Origin: DASVDK01 sp036562265 [NCBI: Thermodesulfobacteriota bacterium]
Lineage (GTDB): Bacteria > DASVDK01
Direction of reading: 5' to 3'
Assembly (NCBI GenBank): GCA_036562265.1
Contig: DATCKS010000373.1
Coordinates: forward strand, 1 to 7,249
Length of the DNA: 7,249 nt
Part shown: positions 1 through 7,249 of the stretch, piece by piece
Layout: each line of letters begins with the position of its first letter
Numbering within the stretch: the first letter of the stretch is position 1
Program-made: the position numbers and the translations under genes
The notes under the pieces: generated by a model
Told to the model about the DNA's origin: nothing
The model's database searches: none
The model's input: only the letters and a program-made list of their open reading frames with translations

Positions 1-80
1 CCGTCGGACCGCTGCTCCTCGCGTTCCTCCTCTTCCAGCGGCGCTTCGTGCAGTCGTTCATGCGCGCCGGGATCAAGTGA
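1..80 (+). CDS. ABC transporter permease, carbohydrate type (3' end only)
   Basis: This is the last 25 codons of an open frame entering from the left, read in frame 3 and ending at TGA 78-80. The peptide has a hydrophobic stretch ([11 protein letters not shown]) followed by [14 protein letters not shown]. This matches the usual C-terminus of MalG/UgpE-type inner-membrane permeases of sugar ABC importers, where a last helix is followed by a QRyFvqG...GavK-like tail. The normal terminal lysine-glycine is shortened to a final lysine here. The N-acetyltransferase start lies 4 bases after the stop, so the two are probably on one transcript. Only the tail is visible, so the substrate cannot be judged and the family call rests on a short motif. 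Confidence 0.55.
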
Positions 81-84
81 GTCC

Positions 85-909
85 GTGACCCAGGGCATCG
101 ACCTCGATGCCTACTTCGAGCGGATCGGCTACACGGGCGACCGGACCGCGACGCTCGACACGCTGCGCGCCGTCCACCGCCATCACGCGCTGGCGATCCC
201 CTTCGAGAACCTCGACCCCTGGCTCGGCCGGCCGGTCCGTCTCGACGCCGCATCGCTCGAGGAGAAGCTCGTTCGCGGCGGCCGCGGCGGGTACTGCTAC
301 GAGCACAACCTCCTCTTCGGCCGCGTCCTCACGGCGCTCGGCTTCCGCGTGACGGGCCTTGCCGCGCGCGTCCTCTGGAACGCGCCGGAAGGCGCGGTCG
401 TGCCGCGCAACCACATGCTCCTTCGCGTCGACCTCGACGAGGCGACGTACGTTGCCGACGTCGGCTTCGGCGGGCTCACGCTGACGGCGCCGCTGCGCCT
501 CGAGCCGGGCGCGCCGCAGGCGACGCCGCACGAGTCGTTCCGCCTCGTCGCGGCCGGCGCCGACTTCGTGATGCAGGCGGAGATCCGCGGGGCCTGGAAG
601 ACGCTCTACCGCTTCGACCTGCAGGAGCAGCTCCTGCCCGACTACGAGGTGTCGAGCTGGTATCTCTCGACCCACCCCGACTCGCGCTTCGTCCGCAACC
701 TGATCGCCGCCCGGCCGGCGGCCGACCGCCGCTACGCGCTCCTCAACGCCGAACTCGCGGTGCACCACCTGAACGGGACGACCGAGCGGCACGCCCTGAC
801 GACCCCGGCCGCCGTACGGGAGGCGCTCGAGGGGACGTTCGGCGTGAGGCTGCCGGCGACGCCCGACCTCGACGAGGCGCTCACGCGACTCACGGCACGA
901 AAGGCCTGA
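85..909 (+). CDS. nat: arylamine N-acetyltransferase
   Basis: This cytoplasmic enzyme is 274 residues long, the usual size for bacterial NATs. The family transfers acetyl (or another acyl group) from CoA to arylamines, hydrazines or related amines by a ping-pong mechanism. The Cys-His-Asp triad is visible: Cys71 in the RGGYCYEHN motif, His110 in RNHMLLRV and Asp125 in VADVGFGG. The PFENLD motif at 39-44 and the N-terminal [12 protein letters not shown] are also typical. The GTG start at 85 is chosen because it places that N-terminal motif at residues 5-16 and follows the permease stop by 4 bases. I see no strong ribosome-binding site, so translation may be coupled to the upstream gene. Some NATs act in secondary metabolism (amide synthases), but no such cluster is visible. 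The last codons (Arg-Lys-Ala-stop) share the 11-mer GAAAGGCCTGA with the repeat array downstream. Confidence 0.95.
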
Positions 910-940
910 GGCAAGTGGAGGGCCACGGCCGCTCCGGCCG

Positions 941-957
941 GGCCGGACCGACCGGCC
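941..957 (+). terminator. GC-rich stem-loop after nat, possible terminator
   Basis: GGCCGG at 941-946 and CCGGCC at 952-957 are perfect inverted arms around a 5-base loop, 31 bases after the nat stop. There is no following T tract, so this is not a classical intrinsic terminator. It lies in a run of dense GC (921-975) where short inverted arms also occur by chance. Confidence 0.25.
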
Positions 958-986
958 GCGCCGCCGGCGGGCCGGGTCGCAGGCCG

Positions 987-1060
987 TGGAAAATGGAAAG
1001 GCCTGACCCCATGGAAAACGGAAAGGCCTGACCCCCTGGAAAATGGAAAGGCCTGACCCC
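987..1060 (+). repeat. left repeat array, three direct copies of a 24-base unit (period 25)
   Basis: The copies are at 987-1010, 1012-1035 and 1037-1060, separated by one base each (A1011, C1036). The unit begins TGGAAAATGGAAAGG and ends CCTGACCCC. Copies 1 and 3 are identical; copy 2 differs by one base (C1019 for T). The unit contains an internal 7-base near-repeat (TGGAAAA then TGGAAAG) and the palindrome AGGCCT. It is far less GC-rich than its surroundings. The same unit recurs in reverse orientation at 2679-2727. From memory, similar motifs ending in GGGGTCAG (or its complement) are dispersed in many GC-rich environmental genomes, sometimes near REP-associated (Y1/RAYT) transposases. That link is an inference and no transposase is present here. 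Confidence 0.95.
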
Positions 1061-1068
1061 GCCGGGTG

Positions 1069-1074
1069 GATAAT
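1069..1074 (+). promoter_or_regulatory. possible -10 box for a leaderless oxidoreductase transcript
   Basis: GATAAT matches the sigma70 -10 consensus at five of six bases and ends 6 bases before the ATG at 1081. A transcript starting about 7 bases downstream would begin at or next to the ATG, so the mRNA could be leaderless. No good -35 is seen at 16-18 bases upstream (that stretch falls in repeat copy 3). The alternative is a normal leader using the weak GGTGGA at 1065-1070 as ribosome-binding site. Confidence 0.2.
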
Positions 1075-1080
1075 GGGCCC

Positions 1081-2676
1081 ATGGCGGGTGCGGCCTCACG
1101 ATACGACGCGATCGTCGTCGGAGCCGGGCACAACGGGTTGGTGACCGCTTGCTATCTGGCGCGAGCGGGCCTTCGGGTGCTCGTGCTCGAGCGCCGCGAC
1201 GTCGTCGGCGGAGCCTGCGTCACGGAGGAGACCTTCCCCGGCTTCAAGGTCTCCACGGCCGCCTACGTCAACAGCCTCTTCCGCAAGGAGATCGTCAGGG
1301 ACCTGCGCCTGGCGGACTACGGCTTCCGCGTGCTGCCGCGCAACCCGTCGTCCTTCACGCCGCTGCCGGACGGCCGGTCGCTCCTCCTCGGGCCGGATGC
1401 CGAGTTCAACCGCCGCGAGATCGCGAAGTTCAGCGCTCGCGACGCGGAGCGCTACCCGGAGTACGAGGCGATGCTCGAGCGGGCGGCGTCGGTCGTGGAG
1501 CCGACCCTCACGATGACGCCGCCGAACCTCCTCGACCCGGGGCTGCGCGACCTCGGCACGCTCGTCTCGCTCGGGCGGGCCTTCCGGCGACTCGGGCCCG
1601 CCGCGTCGGAGGCGGTGGAGGTCCTGACCGGCTCGGCGCGGACCATCCTCGATCGCTGGTTCGAGTCGGAGCCGCTCAAGGCGACGCTCGCGACCGACGC
1701 CGTCATCGGCGCCATGGCGAGCCCCTCCATGCCCGGCACCGCCTACGTGCTCTTCCACCACGTCATGGGCGAGACCGACGGCAAGCGCGGCGTGTGGGGC
1801 TACGTGCAGGGCGGCATGGGGGGCCTGACGCAGGCCCTGGCGTCGGCCGCGCGCGACCTCGGCGCGGAGATCCGCTGCGGCGCCGAGGTGGGTCGGATCC
1901 TGGTGCGCGACGGGGCGGTCACCGGCGTGGCGCTCGTAAGCGGCGACGAGTTCGTCGCGCCGATCGTCGCGAGCAACGCCGACGCCCGCGTCACCTTCAC
2001 GCGGCTCGTCGACCCGCGCCTGCTCCCCCAGGACTTCGTCGAGGCGGTGAAGCGGATCAGCTACGAGAGCGCGTCGCTCAAGATCAACGTGGCGCTCGCC
2101 GAGCTGCCGAGCTTCCGCGCCGTACCGGGAACGGCGCCGGGACCGCAGCATCGGGGCACGATCCACATCTGCCCCGATCAGGACTACATCGAGCGCGCGT
2201 ACGACGACGCCAAGTACGGCCGGCCGTCGTCCCGGCCGGTCCTCGAGTGCACGATCCCGTCGGTGGTGGACCCAACCGTCGCACCTCCGGGCAAGCACCT
2301 CATGTCGATCTTCGTCCAGTACGCGCCCTACAGGCTACGCGAGGGGGACTGGGACCGGCTCCGGGACGCCTTCGCCGACCGCTGCTTCGCCCTGCTCGAC
2401 GAGTACGCCCCCAACTTCAGCCGCTCGGTCGTGGCGCGGCAGGTGCTGACGCCGGTCGACCTCGAGCGGGTCTTCAACCTCACCGGCGGGAACATCTTCC
2501 AGGGGGCGATGATCCCGAGCCAGCTCTTCGCCTTCCGCCCGGTGCCCGGCCACGCGGGCTACCGCACGCCGATCCGCGGGCTCTACCTCTGCGGCGCGGC
2601 CGCCCACCCCGGCGGCGGCGTCATGGGCGCCCCCGGCCTCAACGCCGCCCGCGAGATCCTCCGCACCCGTACCTGA
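1081..2676 (+). CDS. FAD-dependent oxidoreductase, phytoene desaturase/PYROXD2-like
   Basis: This 531-residue protein belongs to the COG1233/CrtI-like flavin oxidoreductases. The N-terminal Rossmann dinucleotide motif is VVGAGHNG (residues 12-19). It is followed by the ribose-binding acid Glu37 in LVLERR and by GGACVTEE. The PYROXD2-like segment YVNSLFRKEIVRDLRL and the C-terminal FAD-contacting GLYLCGAAAHPGGGVMGAPGLNAA (from about residue 500) are both intact. It has no signal peptide. I chose ATG 1081 over GTG 1066 because it puts the first beta strand about eight residues in, as is normal for the family. The substrate is unknown. No phytoene synthase or other carotenoid gene is nearby, so a carotenoid role is not supported. 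The gene stands alone and is framed by inverted repeat arrays; its stop codon lies 2 bases before the right-hand array. Its GC-rich composition looks like that of its neighbours. Confidence 0.9.
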   Translation: MAGAASRYDAIVVGAGHNGLVTACYLARAGLRVLVLERRDVVGGACVTEETFPGFKVSTAAYVNSLFRKEIVRDLRLADYGFRVLPRNPSSFTPLPDGRSLLLGPDAEFNRREIAKFSARDAERYPEYEAMLERAASVVEPTLTMTPPNLLDPGLRDLGTLVSLGRAFRRLGPAASEAVEVLTGSARTILDRWFESEPLKATLATDAVIGAMASPSMPGTAYVLFHHVMGETDGKRGVWGYVQGGMGGLTQALASAARDLGAEIRCGAEVGRILVRDGAVTGVALVSGDEFVAPIVASNADARVTFTRLVDPRLLPQDFVEAVKRISYESASLKINVALAELPSFRAVPGTAPGPQHRGTIHICPDQDYIERAYDDAKYGRPSSRPVLECTIPSVVDPTVAPPGKHLMSIFVQYAPYRLREGDWDRLRDAFADRCFALLDEYAPNFSRSVVARQVLTPVDLERVFNLTGGNIFQGAMIPSQLFAFRPVPGHAGYRTPIRGLYLCGAAAHPGGGVMGAPGLNAAREILRTRT

Positions 2677-2678
2677 TG

Positions 2679-2727
2679 GGGGTCAGGCCTTTCCATTTTC
2701 CAGGGGGTCAGGTCTTTCCATTTTCCA
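2679..2727 (-). repeat. right repeat array, two inverted copies of the same 24-base unit
   Basis: The copies are at 2679-2702 and 2704-2727, with one spacer base (G2703), giving the same 25-base period as the left array. The first copy is an exact reverse complement of left copies 1 and 3; the second differs by one base (T2713). The pair read on the minus strand aligns with 1012-1060 over 49 bases with two mismatches, including the spacer base. The array starts 2 bases after the oxidoreductase stop. The CCTGA of that stop and TCAGG at 2683-2687 could also form a small hairpin. Confidence 0.95.
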
Positions 2728-2741
2728 GGCGTCGGTAACGT

Positions 2742-2758
2742 CGCGGTTCGATCCCGCT
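2742..2758 (+). other. tRNA T-arm-like motif, possible tRNA remnant
   Basis: GGTTCGATCCC at 2745-2755 fits the conserved T-loop pattern. Flanking bases 2742-2746 and 2754-2758 pair at four of five positions around a 7-base loop. No acceptor stem, anticodon arm or CCA end can be matched, so this is not a tRNA gene. It starts 15 bases after the right repeat array. It may be a leftover tRNA 3' end of the kind used as an integration site, or chance. The rest of the convergent gap (2728-2922) shows no gene and no convincing terminator. Confidence 0.2.
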
Positions 2759-2922
2759 CGCCTATCGGCCGGTCATCGGGCCGCAGGGTGAGCCGCGGCG
2801 CCTGGCCGCGCAGGTCGGTCGTCCGGCCGCCGGCGCCTCTCGAGGATGGCGAAGGGGTCGAAGGCGGTCTGGAAGCCAGCGGACGGGCGTCCCGGGAGGC
2901 GGGGGCCGGGGCGAAGGAGGAG

Positions 2923-3717
2923 CTACCCGAGCAGGAGGGTGTCGTCCGAGACGGTCTGGCCGTGGCGCCGCTCGAAGAGGCGCAGGAGGTCCGGCACGTC
3001 GAGCGCGGCGCGCTCCTCACCCGACACGTCGAGCACGACGCGCCCCTCGTGGAGCATGATCGTGCGGGTGCCGTGGTCGAGCGCCTGGCGCATGCTGTGG
3101 GTGACCATGAGCGTCGTGAGGCGGTGCTCGGTCACGAGCCGTGTGGTGAGCGCGAGGACGTAGGCGGCGGTCTTGGGGTCGAGCGCCGCCGTGTGCTCGT
3201 CGAGCAGCAGCACGCGCGAGGGGCGAAGCGTCGCCATGAGGAGGCTCACGGCCTGGCGCTGGCCGCCGGAGAGGAGCCCCATCCGGTCGCCGAGGCGCGT
3301 CTCGAGCCCGAGACCCAGGTCCCTCACGCGCTCGGCCAGCTCTTGCCGCAGGGCGCGCGTGAGGGCCGGCCGGACGCCGCGCGTCCGGCCGCGCGCGGCG
3401 GCGAGGGCGAGGTTCTCCTCGACGGTCAGACTCTCGCAGGTGCCGCTCAGCGGGTCCTGGAACACCCGGGCGACGAGCGCCGCCCGCCGGGCGGTGGGCC
3501 AGTGGGTCACGTCCGTCCCATCCAGCTCGACGGTGCCGGCGTCGAGCGCGACGTCGCCGGCGATGGCGTTGAGCAGGGTTGACTTGCCGGCGCCGTTCGA
3601 GCCGATCACCGTCACGAACTCGCCGCTGGGGACGTCGAGGTCGAGGCCGCGCAGGGCCGGCGTCTCCATGGGGGTGCCGCGGTTGAACGTCACCGTCAGC
3701 CCGCGGACGCGGATCAC
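2923..3717 (-). CDS. ABC importer ATP-binding protein (TrpZ/COG1101 type)
   Basis: This 264-residue nucleotide-binding subunit would power the importer formed with the two genes upstream. Visible motifs are Walker A GSNGAGKST (39-47), the Q-loop glutamine Gln87 in RVFQDPLSGT, the signature LSGGQRQ (149-155), Walker B VLLLDEH (169-175) and the switch histidine His207. The QDPLSGT and LLDEHTAALDPKTA wording is characteristic of the ATPases that accompany COG2984 binding proteins. The start is GTG at 3717-3715, which overlaps the permease stop as GTGA (4 bases), so translation is likely coupled. The open frame continues far upstream, but that part is a shadow of the permease gene. It is the last gene of the operon and converges on the oxidoreductase. 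All catalytic residues are present. Confidence 0.93.
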   Translation of the reverse strand: MIRVRGLTVTFNRGTPMETPALRGLDLDVPSGEFVTVIGSNGAGKSTLLNAIAGDVALDAGTVELDGTDVTHWPTARRAALVARVFQDPLSGTCESLTVEENLALAAARGRTRGVRPALTRALRQELAERVRDLGLGLETRLGDRMGLLSGGQRQAVSLLMATLRPSRVLLLDEHTAALDPKTAAYVLALTTRLVTEHRLTTLMVTHSMRQALDHGTRTIMLHEGRVVLDVSGEERAALDVPDLLRLFERRHGQTVSDDTLLLG

Positions 3718-4613
3718 GGGCGCCCCCCAGCGAGGCGGGCGCCGCGCGAGCGCCGCAGGCCCGGCAGCGTGAGCGCCAGCGCCACCAGGACCGCGGTGAC
3801 GAGGTTCAGGTCCTGCGCCTTGAGACCGAGGATGTCGGCGTTGAGCGCCAGGGCAATGGCGAGCCGGTAGACGATCGAGCCGACCACGGAGGCGATGGTG
3901 CCGAGGACGACGCCGCGACCCGGCACGAGCGTCTCGCCCACGATGACCGCCGCGAGCCCGACCACGATGATGCCGACCCCCATGGACACGTCGGCGCCTC
4001 CCTGGCTCTGCGCGAAGAGGGCGCCGGCGAGCGCGACGAGGGCGTTGCTGACCGCGAGGCCGGCCAGGATCGCCCGGTCGGTGCGGACGCCCTGGGCGCG
4101 CGCCACCCGCGGGTTCGCGCCGGTCGCCCTGAGCGCGAGGCCGATCTCGGAGAGAAGGTAGAGGTCGACCAGGAGCGTGGCGACGACCACGACGGCCAGG
4201 AAGACCATCGGCTGGAGCCAGATCGCGGGGAGGCCGAGACCCTCGAACGGCGTGAACACGGTCGACTCGCCGAGCAGCGCCACGTTGGGTCGCCCCATGA
4301 TCCGCAGGTTGATCGAGAAGAGGGCGATCATGGTGAGGATGCTGGCGAGCAGGTGCAGGATCTTCAGCCGGACGTTGAGCCACCCCGTGACGAGCCCGGC
4401 CACGGCGCCCGCGGCGGCCGCCGCGAGCGAGGCGAGCCAGGGGTCGGCGTCCGCGACGATCAGCGCCGCCGCGACGCCGCCCCCCAGCGGGAAGCTGCCA
4501 TCCACGGTGAGGTCCGGGAAGTTCAGGACCCGGAACGAGAGGTAGACGCCGAGGCCGACGAGGCCGAACACGAGCCCGAGCTCGATCGCCCCGATCAGGG
4601 CGATCGAGCTCAC
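3714..4613 (-). CDS. ABC importer permease (TrpY/COG4120 type)
   Basis: This 299-residue inner-membrane protein of the branched-chain-permease superfamily (BPD_transp_2) has roughly eight hydrophobic segments. Family hallmarks seen are SFRVLNFPDLTVDGSFPLGG (about 26-45), LLASILTMIALFSINLRIMGRPNV (88-111) and the cytoplasmic coupling loop SEIGLALRATGANPRVARAQGV (155-176), which contacts the ATPase. ADVSMGVGIIVVGLAAVIVGETL follows at 208-229. The GTG start at 4613 lies 34 bases after the binding-protein stop. Its ribosome-binding site is poor (GAGG about 12 bases upstream). The stop overlaps the ATPase start. In this family the permease usually works as a homodimer; that is family knowledge and not visible here. 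The substrate is inferred only from the binding protein. Confidence 0.92.
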   Translation of the reverse strand: MSSIALIGAIELGLVFGLVGLGVYLSFRVLNFPDLTVDGSFPLGGGVAAALIVADADPWLASLAAAAAGAVAGLVTGWLNVRLKILHLLASILTMIALFSINLRIMGRPNVALLGESTVFTPFEGLGLPAIWLQPMVFLAVVVVATLLVDLYLLSEIGLALRATGANPRVARAQGVRTDRAILAGLAVSNALVALAGALFAQSQGGADVSMGVGIIVVGLAAVIVGETLVPGRGVVLGTIASVVGSIVYRLAIALALNADILGLKAQDLNLVTAVLVALALTLPGLRRSRGARLAGGRP

Positions 4614-4647
4614 GGCGTGCTCGCGCCTCGGTCGGCGCCCGGCTGCT

Positions 4648-5625
4648 TCACTGGACGACCACCTTCGCTTCCGAGAGGACCGCCTGCGGCAGGGTCACCC
4701 CCATCCGCTTCGCCGCCTCGGGGTTCACGTGCAGCTCGGTGATCTCGACCCCCTGCACCGGCAGGTCGCCCGGCTTCGCGCCCTCGAGGATGCGCAGCAC
4801 GAGCTGGCCGGTCTGCCGGCCGACGTCGTAGTAGTTGAAGCCGACCGCGGCGATGGCGCCGCGCTTGACCGTGTCGGTGTCGCCGGCGAAGACCGGGATC
4901 TTCGAGTCGATGCCGACCTTGACGACGGCCTCGACCGCCGAGACCACCGTGTTGTCGGTGGGGACGTAGATCGCGTCGACCTTGCCGACCAGACTGCGAG
5001 CCGCGGCCAGGACGTCGCTCGACCTGGGCGCCGAGGCCTCGACGACCGTCATGCCGAACTCGGGCGCGTGCTTGCGGACGAGCTCGACCAGGACGACGGC
5101 GTTGGTCTCGCCCGGGTTGAAGACGACGCCGAGGCGCTTGGCCGTCGGCACGACCCGCGCGACGAGCTCGAGGTGCTTGCGGATGGGCGAGAGGTCGGAG
5201 ACGCCGGTGACGTTGCCGCCGGGCCGCTCGAGGCTGGTGACGAGCTTCGCGGCGACCGGGTCGGTGACCGCGGAGAAGACGATCGGGATGTCCTTCGTGG
5301 CCGCGGCCACGGCCTGGGCCGACGGCGTCGAGATCGGGACGATCACGTCCGGGCGGTCGCCGACGAACTTCCGGGCGATCTGGGCGGCGGTGCCGGTGTT
5401 GCCCTGGGCGCTCTCGTACTCGAATCGGAGGTTGCGCCCCTCCTCGAAGCCCCGGGCCTTGAGTTCGTCGCGCACGCCGTCGCGCACGGCGTTGAGCGCC
5501 GGGTGGTCGACGATGGCGGTGACCGCGACGCTCTTCGTCTGCGACCAGGCCCGATCCGGGGCGGTCAACGCGGCGCAGGCGAGGACGAGGCCCGCGACCG
5601 CACGGGCTATGCGACTGTCGGTCAT
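4648..5625 (-). CDS. ABC importer substrate-binding protein (TrpX/COG2984 family)
   Basis: This 325-residue periplasmic-binding-type protein (ABC_sub_bind, PF04392) opens with a signal peptide. A basic start (SRIAR) is followed by a hydrophobic core at about 9-22 and a likely cleavage after Ala-Trp-Ser28. Cys17 in VLAC is a possible but imperfect lipobox. The mature part starts KSVAVTAIVDHPALNAVRDGVRDELKARG, the family hallmark; FAGDTDTVKRGAIAAVGFNYYDVG lies near the ligand cleft. Characterised relatives bind tryptophan or tyrosine, so an aromatic or related ligand is possible but not shown here. ATG 5625 is chosen over an upstream in-frame start at 5676 because AGGAG lies 9 bases before it and the signal peptide then starts cleanly. 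It is the first gene of the three-gene importer operon and lies 87 bases downstream of msrA on the same strand. Confidence 0.93.
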   Translation of the reverse strand: MTDSRIARAVAGLVLACAALTAPDRAWSQTKSVAVTAIVDHPALNAVRDGVRDELKARGFEEGRNLRFEYESAQGNTGTAAQIARKFVGDRPDVIVPISTPSAQAVAAATKDIPIVFSAVTDPVAAKLVTSLERPGGNVTGVSDLSPIRKHLELVARVVPTAKRLGVVFNPGETNAVVLVELVRKHAPEFGMTVVEASAPRSSDVLAAARSLVGKVDAIYVPTDNTVVSAVEAVVKVGIDSKIPVFAGDTDTVKRGAIAAVGFNYYDVGRQTGQLVLRILEGAKPGDLPVQGVEITELHVNPEAAKRMGVTLPQAVLSEAKVVVQ

Positions 5626-5634
5626 GGGGACACA

Positions 5635-5639
5635 CTCCT
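5635..5639 (-). promoter_or_regulatory. ribosome-binding site of the binding-protein gene
   Basis: AGGAG on the minus strand lies 9 bases before ATG 5625. It decides between that start and the longer frame from 5676. Confidence 0.75.
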
Positions 5640-5656
5640 GTTGGAGAGAGTCGGCC

Positions 5657-5674
5657 GGGGGGTTGGAACCCCTC
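5657..5674 (-). promoter_or_regulatory. inverted repeat at the importer transcription start, possible operator
   Basis: GGGGTT (5659-5664) and AACCCC (5667-5672) are perfect inverted arms around two bases; a G-T and a G-C pair extend them by two positions. The predicted transcription start (about 5668) lies inside it. This is a suitable place for a repressor operator, or for a 5' hairpin at the very start of the leader. No regulator gene is adjacent. Confidence 0.4.
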
Positions 5675-5704
5675 ACGATAGCAACACGATTACCTGCCGT
5701 CCAA
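5675..5704 (-). promoter_or_regulatory. putative sigma70 promoter of the ABC importer operon
   Basis: On the minus strand there is a TTGGAC -35 (5704-5699), an 18-base spacer and a TATCGT -10 (5680-5675). TG one base upstream of the -10 makes an extended -10. The predicted start is about 5668, giving a leader of about 43 bases. It lies just after the msrA stop, so the importer could be expressed separately from msrA even if read-through also occurs. Confidence 0.4.
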
Positions 5705-5712
5705 TCGGCTGC

Positions 5713-6204
5713 TCACTCCCTCACCCAGTGGCACGTGTACCCGCCCGGGTTCTTGACGAGGTAGTCCTGGTGGTAGTCCTCGGCCGGGTAGAAGGGGCCG
5801 GCCGGGACGATCTCGGTGACGACCGGACGGCCCCACCTGCCCGATTCGTCGACGCGCCGCTTCACCGCCTCGGCCGTCCGTCGCTGCGCCTCGTCGTGAT
5901 AGAAGATGGCCGATCGGTACTGCGTGCCCACGTCGTTGCCCTGCCGGTTCGGCGTGGTCGGGTCGTGCATCCGGAAGAACCAGTCGAGCAGTGCCTCGTA
6001 GCTGAGCCGGTCCGGATCGAAGACGACCCGGATCGACTCGGCGTGGCCGGTCCGGCCGGTCTTCACCGTCTCGTACCGCGGCGCGGGGGTCGTCCCACCC
6101 GTGTAGCCCACCTCGGTATCGAGCACGCCCGGGATCCGGCGGATGATGTCCTCCATGCCCCAGAAACAGCCGCTGGCCAGCGTGGCGATCTCCGTCCGAC
6201 CCAT
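5713..6204 (-). CDS. msrA: peptide methionine-(S)-S-oxide reductase MsrA
   Basis: This 163-residue cytoplasmic repair enzyme reduces the S epimer of methionine sulfoxide in proteins, with electrons normally from thioredoxin. The catalytic motif GCFWG places the nucleophile at Cys13. GHAE (53-56), NDVGTQYRSAIFYH (90-103) and AEDYHQDYLVKNPGGYTCHW (141-160) are all conserved. Cys158 is the probable resolving cysteine, the one-C-terminal-cysteine arrangement of short MsrAs. There is no fused MsrB domain and no signal peptide. ATG 6204 is chosen because GGAGGT lies 9 bases before it and the GCFWG motif then sits at the usual position; the open frame runs 81 codons further upstream without family similarity. 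The gene is followed on the same strand by the ABC importer after 87 bases. Confidence 0.96.
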   Translation of the reverse strand: MGRTEIATLASGCFWGMEDIIRRIPGVLDTEVGYTGGTTPAPRYETVKTGRTGHAESIRVVFDPDRLSYEALLDWFFRMHDPTTPNRQGNDVGTQYRSAIFYHDEAQRRTAEAVKRRVDESGRWGRPVVTEIVPAGPFYPAEDYHQDYLVKNPGGYTCHWVRE

Positions 6205-6263
6205 GGCGCACGTACCTCCAACGGCTCGCGGCCGACTTCCAGCGGCTCGGGACCGACTTCCGC
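6201..6263 (-). repeat. 21-base tandem repeat spanning the msrA ribosome-binding site
   Basis: Units 6222-6242 and 6243-6263 agree at 17 of 21 positions (CGGCTCG, then CCGACTTCC on the plus strand). A degenerate third unit in phase, 6201-6221, holds the msrA Shine-Dalgarno and start codon. On the minus strand each unit begins with TGGAAGT- or TGGAGGT-like sequence, so the working GGAGGT sits at the same place as GGAAGT in the other units. Confidence 0.6.
6214..6219 (-). promoter_or_regulatory. strong ribosome-binding site of msrA
   Basis: GGAGGT on the minus strand lies 9 bases before ATG 6204. It is the best Shine-Dalgarno match in the window and fixes the msrA start. Confidence 0.8.
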
Positions 6264-6281
6264 TCCGGCCTCTGCGCGGGG

Positions 6282-6308
6282 CCCCACGGACCCGAAGGGC
6301 GCGTGGGG
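6282..6308 (-). other. two-tier hairpin in the msrA upstream region
   Basis: CCCCACG (6282-6288) pairs perfectly with CGTGGGG (6302-6308). Inside it CCC (6291-6293) pairs with GGG (6297-6299) around GAA. There is no T tract on either strand. It would lie in the leader of msrA if transcription starts further upstream. An extended -10-like TACCAT preceded by TG lies at 6438-6446 on the minus strand, but I found no matching -35. Apart from this, the tandem repeat and the plus-strand promoter elements, the 305-base gap 6205-6509 shows no gene. Confidence 0.4.
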
Positions 6309-6460
6309 TGCGCCTGCCGGGCATCCGCGCCTCGGCGCGCCAACCGCCGGTGGCCGCTCGCCTCTGCGGCGCCTCCCGGCGCCGCGCTCCGGCCGAAACG
6401 AGTCGGCGTCTGCTCGACGCGCGCGGCCGCAACCCGAATGGTAACACCGCTCACCGACGC

Positions 6461-6472
6461 CTTGCGCACAAG
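6461..6472. promoter_or_regulatory. near-palindrome overlapping the -35 region, possible operator
   Basis: CTTGCGCACAAG is a 12-base palindrome with one mismatched pair. It overlaps the candidate -35 of the right-hand gene, a position where a bound protein would affect transcription. It is short, and chance is possible. Confidence 0.25.
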
Positions 6473-6491
6473 CCACCTTGCGGTCTAGGCT
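6462..6491 (+). promoter_or_regulatory. weak candidate promoter for the TonB/TolA-like gene
   Basis: TTGCGC (6462-6467), an 18-base spacer and TAGGCT (6486-6491) each match consensus at three of six positions. The spacing is acceptable and the start codon is 19 bases further on. This is a weak match of the kind common in GC-rich genomes. Confidence 0.25.
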
Positions 6492-6509
6492 GGCCGTGGA
6501 GCCAAGGGC

Positions 6510-7136
6510 GTGAGAACACGAGCGACAGTGTTGCTGTTCGCGCTGCTGCTGGGCATCGCCCTGGTCTACGCGTACGCGCGGCGGCCCTGGGGCGAGCGGC
6601 CGGCGCAGGTGCAGAGGCCGGCGGTTGCCGTGGCGAGTCCGACACCGGCTGCGGTCGAGACGCCGCCGCCGGCCGGTCCGCGCGCCGAGTTCAGCGAGGC
6701 CGAGCCGCCGAGCCCCCCGCCGGCGGTCCCGCCGCAGGCGCGACGGCGGCCGGACGGGGCGACCGCCGGCCGTTCCGCGGGCGACGGCGCGGGGCGGTCG
6801 GGCACGGCATCGCGCGCCAGGGTTCGCGTCAAGCCGACCACCCCTCGGCTCACGGACTACTTCGAGACCATCTCCACGGAGATCGGCAGCCGGTGGCAGG
6901 TGCCCGAGTCGGCGGGACGCCGGGCCGCCGCGGTTCCCGTGGTCATCAAGGTTGCCCGGGACGGCCGGGTCGTCTGGGCGCTGGTCGAGGGTTCCTCCGG
7001 CGATCCGGCGATCGACGGGTCGGTGAACGGCCTGATCGAGGACCTGAAGCGCGACGGCCTGCCTCCCCTGCCGGACCATTACCCGTACGACGAGCTGGAC
7101 GTCGGTCTGGTGCTGAACGCCGCCACCGCGCGCTAG
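6510..7136 (+). CDS. membrane-anchored TonB/TolA C-terminal-domain-like protein
   Basis: This is a 208-residue protein. A basic N-terminus (MRTR) leads into one hydrophobic helix at about 6-23, the likely inner-membrane anchor. A proline/alanine/arginine-rich, low-complexity linker follows (about 26-110), long enough to reach into the periplasm. The folded C-terminal part (about 115-203) reads YFETISTEIGSRWQVPE, then VPVVIKVARDGRVVWALVEGSSGDPAIDGSV, then LPPLPDHYPYDELDVGLVL. The pattern rDGrV..v.SSG...D.sv...PPLP is that of TonB/TolA C-terminal domains (also AgmX/PglI type). TonB and TolA couple inner-membrane energy to outer-membrane receptors or envelope constriction, but no exbB/exbD or tolQ/tolR is in the window, so the partner is unknown. 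The GTG start at 6510 is supported by GGAG at 6498-6501, 8 bases upstream. It is transcribed divergently from msrA. Confidence 0.75.
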   Translation: MRTRATVLLFALLLGIALVYAYARRPWGERPAQVQRPAVAVASPTPAAVETPPPAGPRAEFSEAEPPSPPPAVPPQARRRPDGATAGRSAGDGAGRSGTASRARVRVKPTTPRLTDYFETISTEIGSRWQVPESAGRRAAAVPVVIKVARDGRVVWALVEGSSGDPAIDGSVNGLIEDLKRDGLPPLPDHYPYDELDVGLVLNAATAR

Positions 7137-7165
7137 CGATACCGCCGAGCCGCGACCCGGATGCC

Positions 7166-7244
7166 GCCGCGCCCCGCGCCGGCGCGGGAAGGCCCGCCTC
7201 GCGGGGACCCCGCGGCGCGGCTTCTGGCCTTGCAGCCCCGGGGC
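7166..7244. other. densely palindromic GC-rich tail downstream of the TonB/TolA-like gene
   Basis: Four perfect inverted elements are nested here. GCCGCGCC at 7166-7173 faces GGCGCGGC at 7214-7221. Between them lies the 16-base palindrome 7173-7188 and GCGGGG/CCCCGC at 7201-7213 around one base. GCCCCGGGGC follows at 7235-7244. As RNA this could fold into a branched structure starting 29 bases after the stop codon, and may limit read-through. There is no T tract. No gene is recognised from 7137 to the window end. Confidence 0.4.
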
Positions 7245-7249
7245 GGCGC

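Follow-up and report, generated by a model that had tools for sequence, protein, structure and literature searches.

A 7,249-nt stretch of the Thermodesulfobacteriota bacterium DASVDK01 sp036562265 (assembly GCA_036562265.1, contig DATCKS010000373.1, positions 1-7,249 of the forward strand; hereafter the window) contains an oxidoreductase gene lying between facing arrays of a short repeat, which raises the question of whether the gene is the cargo of a mobile element or a resident with repeats on either side. The repeat unit is 24 nt long (TGGAAAATGGAAAGGCCTGACCCC) and occurs five times in the window. The left array (987..1060, forward strand) consists of three head-to-tail copies at 987-1010 (exact), 1012-1035 (one mismatch) and 1037-1060 (exact), with their GACCCC ends toward the gene. 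The right array (2679..2727, reverse strand) consists of two head-to-tail copies at 2679-2702 (exact) and 2704-2727 (one mismatch), with their GGGG ends toward the gene's stop codon, giving the order + + + gene - -. The period is 25 in both arrays, made up in the left array of the 24-nt unit and one variable base, and the left array has a GC content of 55%. A first-pass annotation had described three direct and two inverted copies at a 25-base period, which proved exact to the base, and its 49-base inverted repeat with two mismatches was recovered on recomputation (1012-1060 against 2679-2727, 96% complementary). A set of five copies with up to three mismatches was reached in none of 200 dinucleotide shuffles (mean 0.00), and outside the five copies no 24-mer of the window shares more than 14 of its 24 bases with the unit.

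The enclosed gene (1081..2676, forward strand) encodes a complete FAD-dependent oxidoreductase of 531 amino acids, a member of the CrtO/CrtI superfamily (phytoene desaturase / carotene ketolase). Its ATG at 1081, for which an in-frame GTG at 1066 is an alternative, lies 20 nt past the left array. The stop codon finishes at 2676, leaving 2 nt up to the right array at 2679. Both distances agree with the annotated placing. The best NCBIfam model is CrtO (306 bits, under the cut-off of 1000) and the protein matches the phytoene dehydrogenase of PDB 4dgk with an E-value of 4.9e-24. We claim no specific reaction because none of the NCBIfam models shown attains its cut-off. The window also encodes an arylamine N-acetyltransferase-like protein (NAT, 85-909), MsrA, a TonB-domain protein and, on the strand opposite to the oxidoreductase, an ABC system whose three genes specify an ATPase, a permease and a binding protein. 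The best NCBIfam model for the binding protein is TrpX (301 bits, under the cut-off of 390) and this protein has matches of up to 61.6% identity in plasmids, while the top match of the permease among 94 genomes from the phylum of the L001 genome (record title Rokuibacteriota) has 35% identity (43.6 bits). The composition of the oxidoreductase gene (GC 72.2%, GC3 95.3%) is like that of the neighbouring NAT gene (72.5% and 94.5%).

No target-site duplication is apparent from the flanks of the bracketed region (GGCCG at 982-986, GGCGT at 2728-2732), and a Pfam scan of seven window ORFs found no transposase family; the first-pass annotation had reported both absences. A duplication that has since decayed would also fit these flanks. 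Tn7-like and Mu-like transposons have several transposase binding sites per end and outer ends of the form 5'-TG...CA-3'. A non-autonomous DDE-type transposon of this design would account for three sites on the left and two on the right in mirror order, and for outer edges that both begin TGGAAAA when read inward. We consider it highly improbable, given the lack of a target duplication, the lack of a transposase among the seven ORFs and the fact that the best relatives of the unit are repeats of Y1 transposases with the opposite outer end, as described below. No recombinase was found among the seven ORFs either, which bears on the proposal of an inversion region or switch, in which the two facing arrays recombine and so turn the gene around. 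Rare homologous inversion is possible in principle between 49-nt inverted repeats with two mismatches that lie 1.6 kb apart, but the locus is known from one sequence in one orientation and shows no sign of a selected switch, and we regard this proposal as very unlikely. Fifteen bases past the right array begins a T-arm-like sequence, GCGGTTCGATCCCGC (2743-2757). A tRNA remnant at this place was rejected, as ARAGORN reported 0 tRNAs and the Rfam matches included no tRNA family.

The nature of the unit was examined next to known families of short interspersed repeats. REP sequences and REPINs, which are associated with RAYTs, resemble the window in their short mirror-arranged repeats and their Y1-type transposase family (PMC3116915, PMC2817692, PMC6006769). 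However, the window unit has neither a GTAG tag nor a hairpin, and it forms direct tandem arrays whereas a REPIN is a hairpin doublet. GTAG/CTAC and CGTC/GACG were looked for in the unit and neither is present, and the folding energy of a single unit is -0.1 kcal/mol on either strand, which amounts to no fold; a palindromic GTAG/CGTC-tagged REP was rejected on these grounds. A second type fits better at its end. The terminal inverted repeats (TIRs) that flank the TIR-associated tyrosine transposases (TIRYTs), a RAYT-like kind of Y1 transposase, have the published motif GGGGWSAS (PMC3733652, PMC6006769). The TIRs and TIRtrons were described by Di Nocera et al. 2013, who report TIRs as "dimers or clusters" (PMC3733652), and 20 of 26 TIRYTs belong to TnpA-Y1 subclass 2.1 of Quentin et al. 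2018 (PMC6006769). Within the literature searched, the term TIRYT appears only in these two papers and a 16-base core of the unit and its complement were not found. The reverse-complemented unit (GGGGTCAGGCCTTTCCATTTTCCA) begins with GGGGTCAG, which fits GGGGWSAS; this octamer lies at 2679-2686 and 2704-2711 and, on the reverse strand, at the gene-side end of all three left copies. Like the TIRs of TIRYTs, the window units are about 24 nt long and clustered. They differ in their very tight period of 25 nt, in enclosing a metabolic gene in place of a Y1 transposase and in that their GGGG ends face the enclosed gene. The repeat type is assigned from a single loose 8-base motif. The RAYT link of the first-pass annotation has support in this form: the unit matches the TIRs found at RAYT-like TIRYT genes, and is not a GTAG-tagged palindromic REP.

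Related units flank Y1 genes in four other genomes (G254, G441, G1018 and G148). In G254, TGGAAAATGGAAGTGCCTGACACC, which is unlike the window unit at 3 of 24 positions, forms an inverted pair that encloses the ORF of a Y1 transposase; four copies of this variant were found, with none in the reversed control (188 genomes from the phylum of the L010 genome, record title Deltaproteobacteria). A looser pattern gave four inverted pairs in all, the three further ones with copies approximately 100 nt apart. The enclosed ORF has an MPNHFH motif and a Pfam Y1_Tnp score of 23.2 bits in the genome scan, although the protein alone scores 21.1 bits, just under the cut-off of 23. G254 has 12 Y1 matches. 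The nine long-form loci (one of them, L121, with a stop) were examined, leaving out the short forms L107, L110 and L113, and all nine are enclosed by inverted repeats of 26-38 nt with outer ends GGGGTCA, GGGTCA, GGGGTCG, GGTGTCAGG or GTGCCAGG. A further TIRYT locus (L153) has an arm beginning AGGGGTCAGGCCTAGAC that is the same as the window over GGGGTCAGGCCT. These similarities tell against the view that the window holds unrelated local tandem repeats, with GGGGTCAG fitting the TIRYT motif by chance. That view is consistent with the shortness of the motif and with the exact unit lacking a transposase in the genomes searched, but it leaves unexplained the G254 repeat around a Y1 gene and the stretch in common with L153, and local duplication would not produce copies in opposite orientation to the left and right of a gene. 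We think it unlikely.

Patterns based on the unit were used in 976 genome searches over overlapping sets, and 335 further searches used a tandem CTGACCCC pattern; the unit was not found as an exact array in any of these, and no exact unit was found beside a transposase. The unit pattern matched none of 6 genomes, none of 149 in a separate set, one of 188 (the G254 variant), three of 240 (G254 and two single copies) and one of 298, where the only copy overlaps a plsX-like ORF. With one mismatch allowed, the 16-base core matched 5 of 95 genomes, always singly, with 16 matches in the reversed control. Five single matches of the core in viral contigs formed no array and were read as chance, and plasmids gave no match to the array. 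The tandem CTGACCCC pattern matched 6 of 25 genomes, among them G640 with simple satellite-like arrays, and none of these looked TIR-like by eye. It matched 42 of 310 genomes, compared with 21 for the reversed control (hand count). Ten stretches from this last search were picked by eye and are therefore examples, not a count. Also among the 310 genomes, G1007 has many CTGACCCC arrays with a period of 18 (68 matches) and G1046 has such arrays with a period of 23 in one place, in both cases of a form unlike TIR units.

The orientation of the motif relative to the enclosed gene separates the possible readings of the locus. Relatives of the G254 Y1 protein were present at E-values of 1e-20 or below in 27 of 240 genomes of its class, from which 30 loci were fetched. 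The polarity comparison started from 53 Y1-type loci, of which 43 were unique and usable after removal of six with no P0001-like match, three duplicates and one at a contig edge. An ungapped inverted repeat with a score of at least 16 around the gene was found at 22 of these 43 loci and not at the other 21, so TIRs are not universal at such genes, although two of the latter (L117 and L124) do show an inverted repeat in the examination of the G254 loci. With up to one mismatch allowed, the motif points only outward at 16 of the 22, both ways at three, only inward at one and is lacking at two, which have GTGCCAGG outside; it is exact at eight of the 22. The sole inward-only locus (L171) has a one-mismatch match and an arm that starts GGGACGG. 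The window has the opposite polarity to most Y1 loci, with the motif on the inner side of both arrays. As the arrangement is mirror-symmetric, its polarity is unchanged on the other strand, and a bracket with GGGG outside the oxidoreductase is absent on both strands of the window. An element running from left end to right end therefore cannot contain the oxidoreductase.

The layout of TIR copies in a whole genome points the same way. In G148, a single TIR family has 45 copies (up to three mismatches; none in the reversed control) in 17 clusters, comprising -+ pairs, four lone copies, two -- clusters, two ++++ clusters and mixed ones. This resembles, in another genome, what the first-pass annotation had set against its own cassette, namely repeats at many places with no cassette boundaries. 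Among neighbouring copies within 2 kb of each other (n = 28), nine junctions are -+, eight -- and 11 ++, with no +- junction; three +- junctions appear only at a limit of 20 kb. A close +...- junction was thus not seen as a built-in form of these TIRs and would need two separate clusters, of which about 0.11 pairs within 2 kb would be expected per genome at the density in G148. We do not place all G148 copies between genes because several overlap ORFs that were called by a rough script. One G148 locus (L253, 2052-3625) has a 304-amino acid Y1 gene, with - - - before it and + + after it, whose protein scores 73 bits against NCBIfam REP_Tyr_transpos (under the cut-off of 80). A seven-copy ---++++ cluster of the same TIR family (up to six mismatches) lies at 2284-2571 of another G148 locus, L210. 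Elsewhere, a Y1 gene in L207 is flanked by a single copy on one side and, on the other, by two direct copies spaced by 35 nt. L208 has a lone ++ cluster, two tandem copies ending directly before an ATG, and L209 a lone -- cluster, two tandem copies after an ORF. The lone tandem arrays in L208, L209 and G148 indicate that transposase-free direct arrays are ordinary for this repeat type. At 2610-2674 in L208, 1291-1323 in L206 and 2032-2095 in L250, where the ORF start is doubtful, the GGGG/CCCC end of lone TIR-type copies is no more than about 10 bases from the edge of an ORF. TIR ends near ORF boundaries, as in the window, perhaps reflect an insertion preference.

The best 80 of 155 oxidoreductase relatives were fetched with up to 8 kb of DNA per side, less on short contigs (nine loci are shorter than 9 kb), and the unit is present in the surrounding DNA of none of these 80. 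The closest of them (L001; 84% identity in protein and 82% in DNA) is similar to the window over 1093-2660, a span inside the coding region. The DNA alignment of L002 begins at window position 1062, directly past the left array, although a short-word check found exact pieces of only 8 bases in this stretch. The window's neighbour genes have no match in the 80 loci at an E-value of 1e-10, apart from one ABC ATPase match of 32% identity (L073), and at 1e-4 seven of the 80 loci match, each by the ABC ATPase alone. No orthologous site was thus found among the 80 loci. In a protein tree of 46 sequences (the window and the first 45 of the 80 loci, by number, with a stop-free match translation), the window sequence is nearest to L001 and three Actinobacteria-labelled bins; L020 has a very long branch and is unreliable. 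The tree is largely sorted by phylum label, with seven changes where the minimum is six, and so does not show rampant transfer; horizontal transfer was rejected as support for mobility.

The 20 nt between the left array and the start codon contain GATAAT (1069..1074, forward strand), a loose match to a -10 hexamer, 6 nt before the ATG. The three closest relatives among the best 80 of 155 have CATAAT, GACAAT and AACACT at the same 6-nt spacing, while 54 of the 56 other relatives listed, some of which have no start candidate, lack even a hexamer of the form NANNNT at that spacing (the exceptions are L063 and L038). A sigma-70 scan found no complete promoter. GATAAT is likely to be the core of the gene's own putative leaderless promoter, common to this oxidoreductase subgroup, and the comparison suggests that the 20 nt represent this promoter core with the array just upstream of it. 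The left array would then probably lie outside the transcript of this gene. The gene is most likely a resident with the composition of its neighbours and, apparently, its own -10 element.

These results bear on the first-pass annotation's central proposal of a mobilised cargo gene, considered here as a REPIN-like or MITE-like non-autonomous element that has the arrays as its ends and the oxidoreductase as cargo and is moved by a Y1 transposase in trans. A single complete gene closely enclosed by inverted arrays is what such an element would look like, as in a MITE with cargo or a composite transposon, and the Y1 gene of L253 is bracketed by inverted tandem arrays of the same geometry. Yet the bracket in the window is inside-out relative to TIRYT loci, a +- arrangement occurs in none of the 28 close junctions of G148, and the window has no target duplication, no transposase and no known second copy. 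The gene has the GC and GC3 of its neighbours, the repeats were not found in the DNA around the 80 relatives (best 80 of 155) and the -10-like element common to the closest of them persists between array and start. The cargo cassette is not supported, and we judge it very unlikely.

An effect of the arrays on expression is possible through upstream sites covering the -35 region, a 3' hairpin or terminator, or pairing of the two transcript ends; as an account of the whole arrangement we judge it very improbable. The array arms pair as RNA at -98.0 kcal/mol (mean of -30.2 for 100 shuffled arms), a predicted fold of 987-2727 has 48 of the 74 bases of the left array paired to the right one, and the stop can form a hairpin, CCTGAT..GTCAGG, followed by a weak T tail. 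Against this, such pairing is expected from any inverted repeat, single units have no fold, the terminator scan found one terminator against 0.6 expected, and GATAAT at 1069-1074 suggests that the transcript excludes the left array. A transcript panhandle was rejected for this last reason, strong as the pairing is. The CCTGAT of the stop region is able to pair with the GTCAGG of the first right-hand unit (2672-2687). The L001 gene likewise ends ACCTGA. The site of insertion may thus have looked like the unit beforehand, and such a pre-existing unit-like stretch at the stop is a possible basis of target choice.

Taken together, we favour the reading, at a probability of about 0.68, that the five units are TIR-type interspersed repeats, a kind presumably processed by TIRYTs, and form two separate clusters, one in each spacer next to a resident oxidoreductase gene. 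It draws on the observed motif, on related units that flank Y1 genes, on the tandem and lone arrays elsewhere and on the polarity: the gene is not cargo because the outer (GGGG) ends of the unit face it from both sides. By analogy with the Y1 loci, the window's own genome presumably encodes, elsewhere, a matching TIRYT that made the arrays, and the gene for it would be expected to have ends of the form GGGGTCAGGCCTTT. This transposase would recognise the ends as single strands, then nick and join single-stranded TIR copies, seeding and extending tandem clusters. One cluster would have been seeded on each side of the oxidoreductase, leaving the gene a bystander, since excision would need a left end and then a right end around a segment, an order absent on either strand. 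Under this two-cluster reading, it is a coincidence that two independent, mirror-symmetric clusters lie so close to the gene, 2 nt past its stop and 20 nt before its start. This tight fit to the gene ends is the weakest point of the reading, which does not explain it. An inside-out TIR bracket that is itself a functional unit, with the transposase or host recombination inverting, copying or amplifying the gene, or with transposase binding at the promoter controlling it, is conceivable, but we give it very little credence.

If the repeat-cluster reading is right, the window adds a further TIR family to those of the TIRYT transposases, which are little studied, and polarity offers a simple test for telling true cargo brackets apart from genes with a repeat cluster on either side. 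The 45-copy family of G148, with no close head-to-head junction, and the tandem ends at Y1 genes describe the layout of the ends. Two further repeats were observed elsewhere in the window. A perfect 14-base inverted repeat (GAGCTCGATCGCCC / GGGCGATCGAGCTC, 4578-4591 and 4598-4611) lies where the ABC permease gene begins; an Rfam match of this region (4578-4611) to a plant miRNA was taken as surely chance, but the palindrome itself is real. Upstream of msrA there is an imperfect 21-base tandem duplication at 6217-6261.
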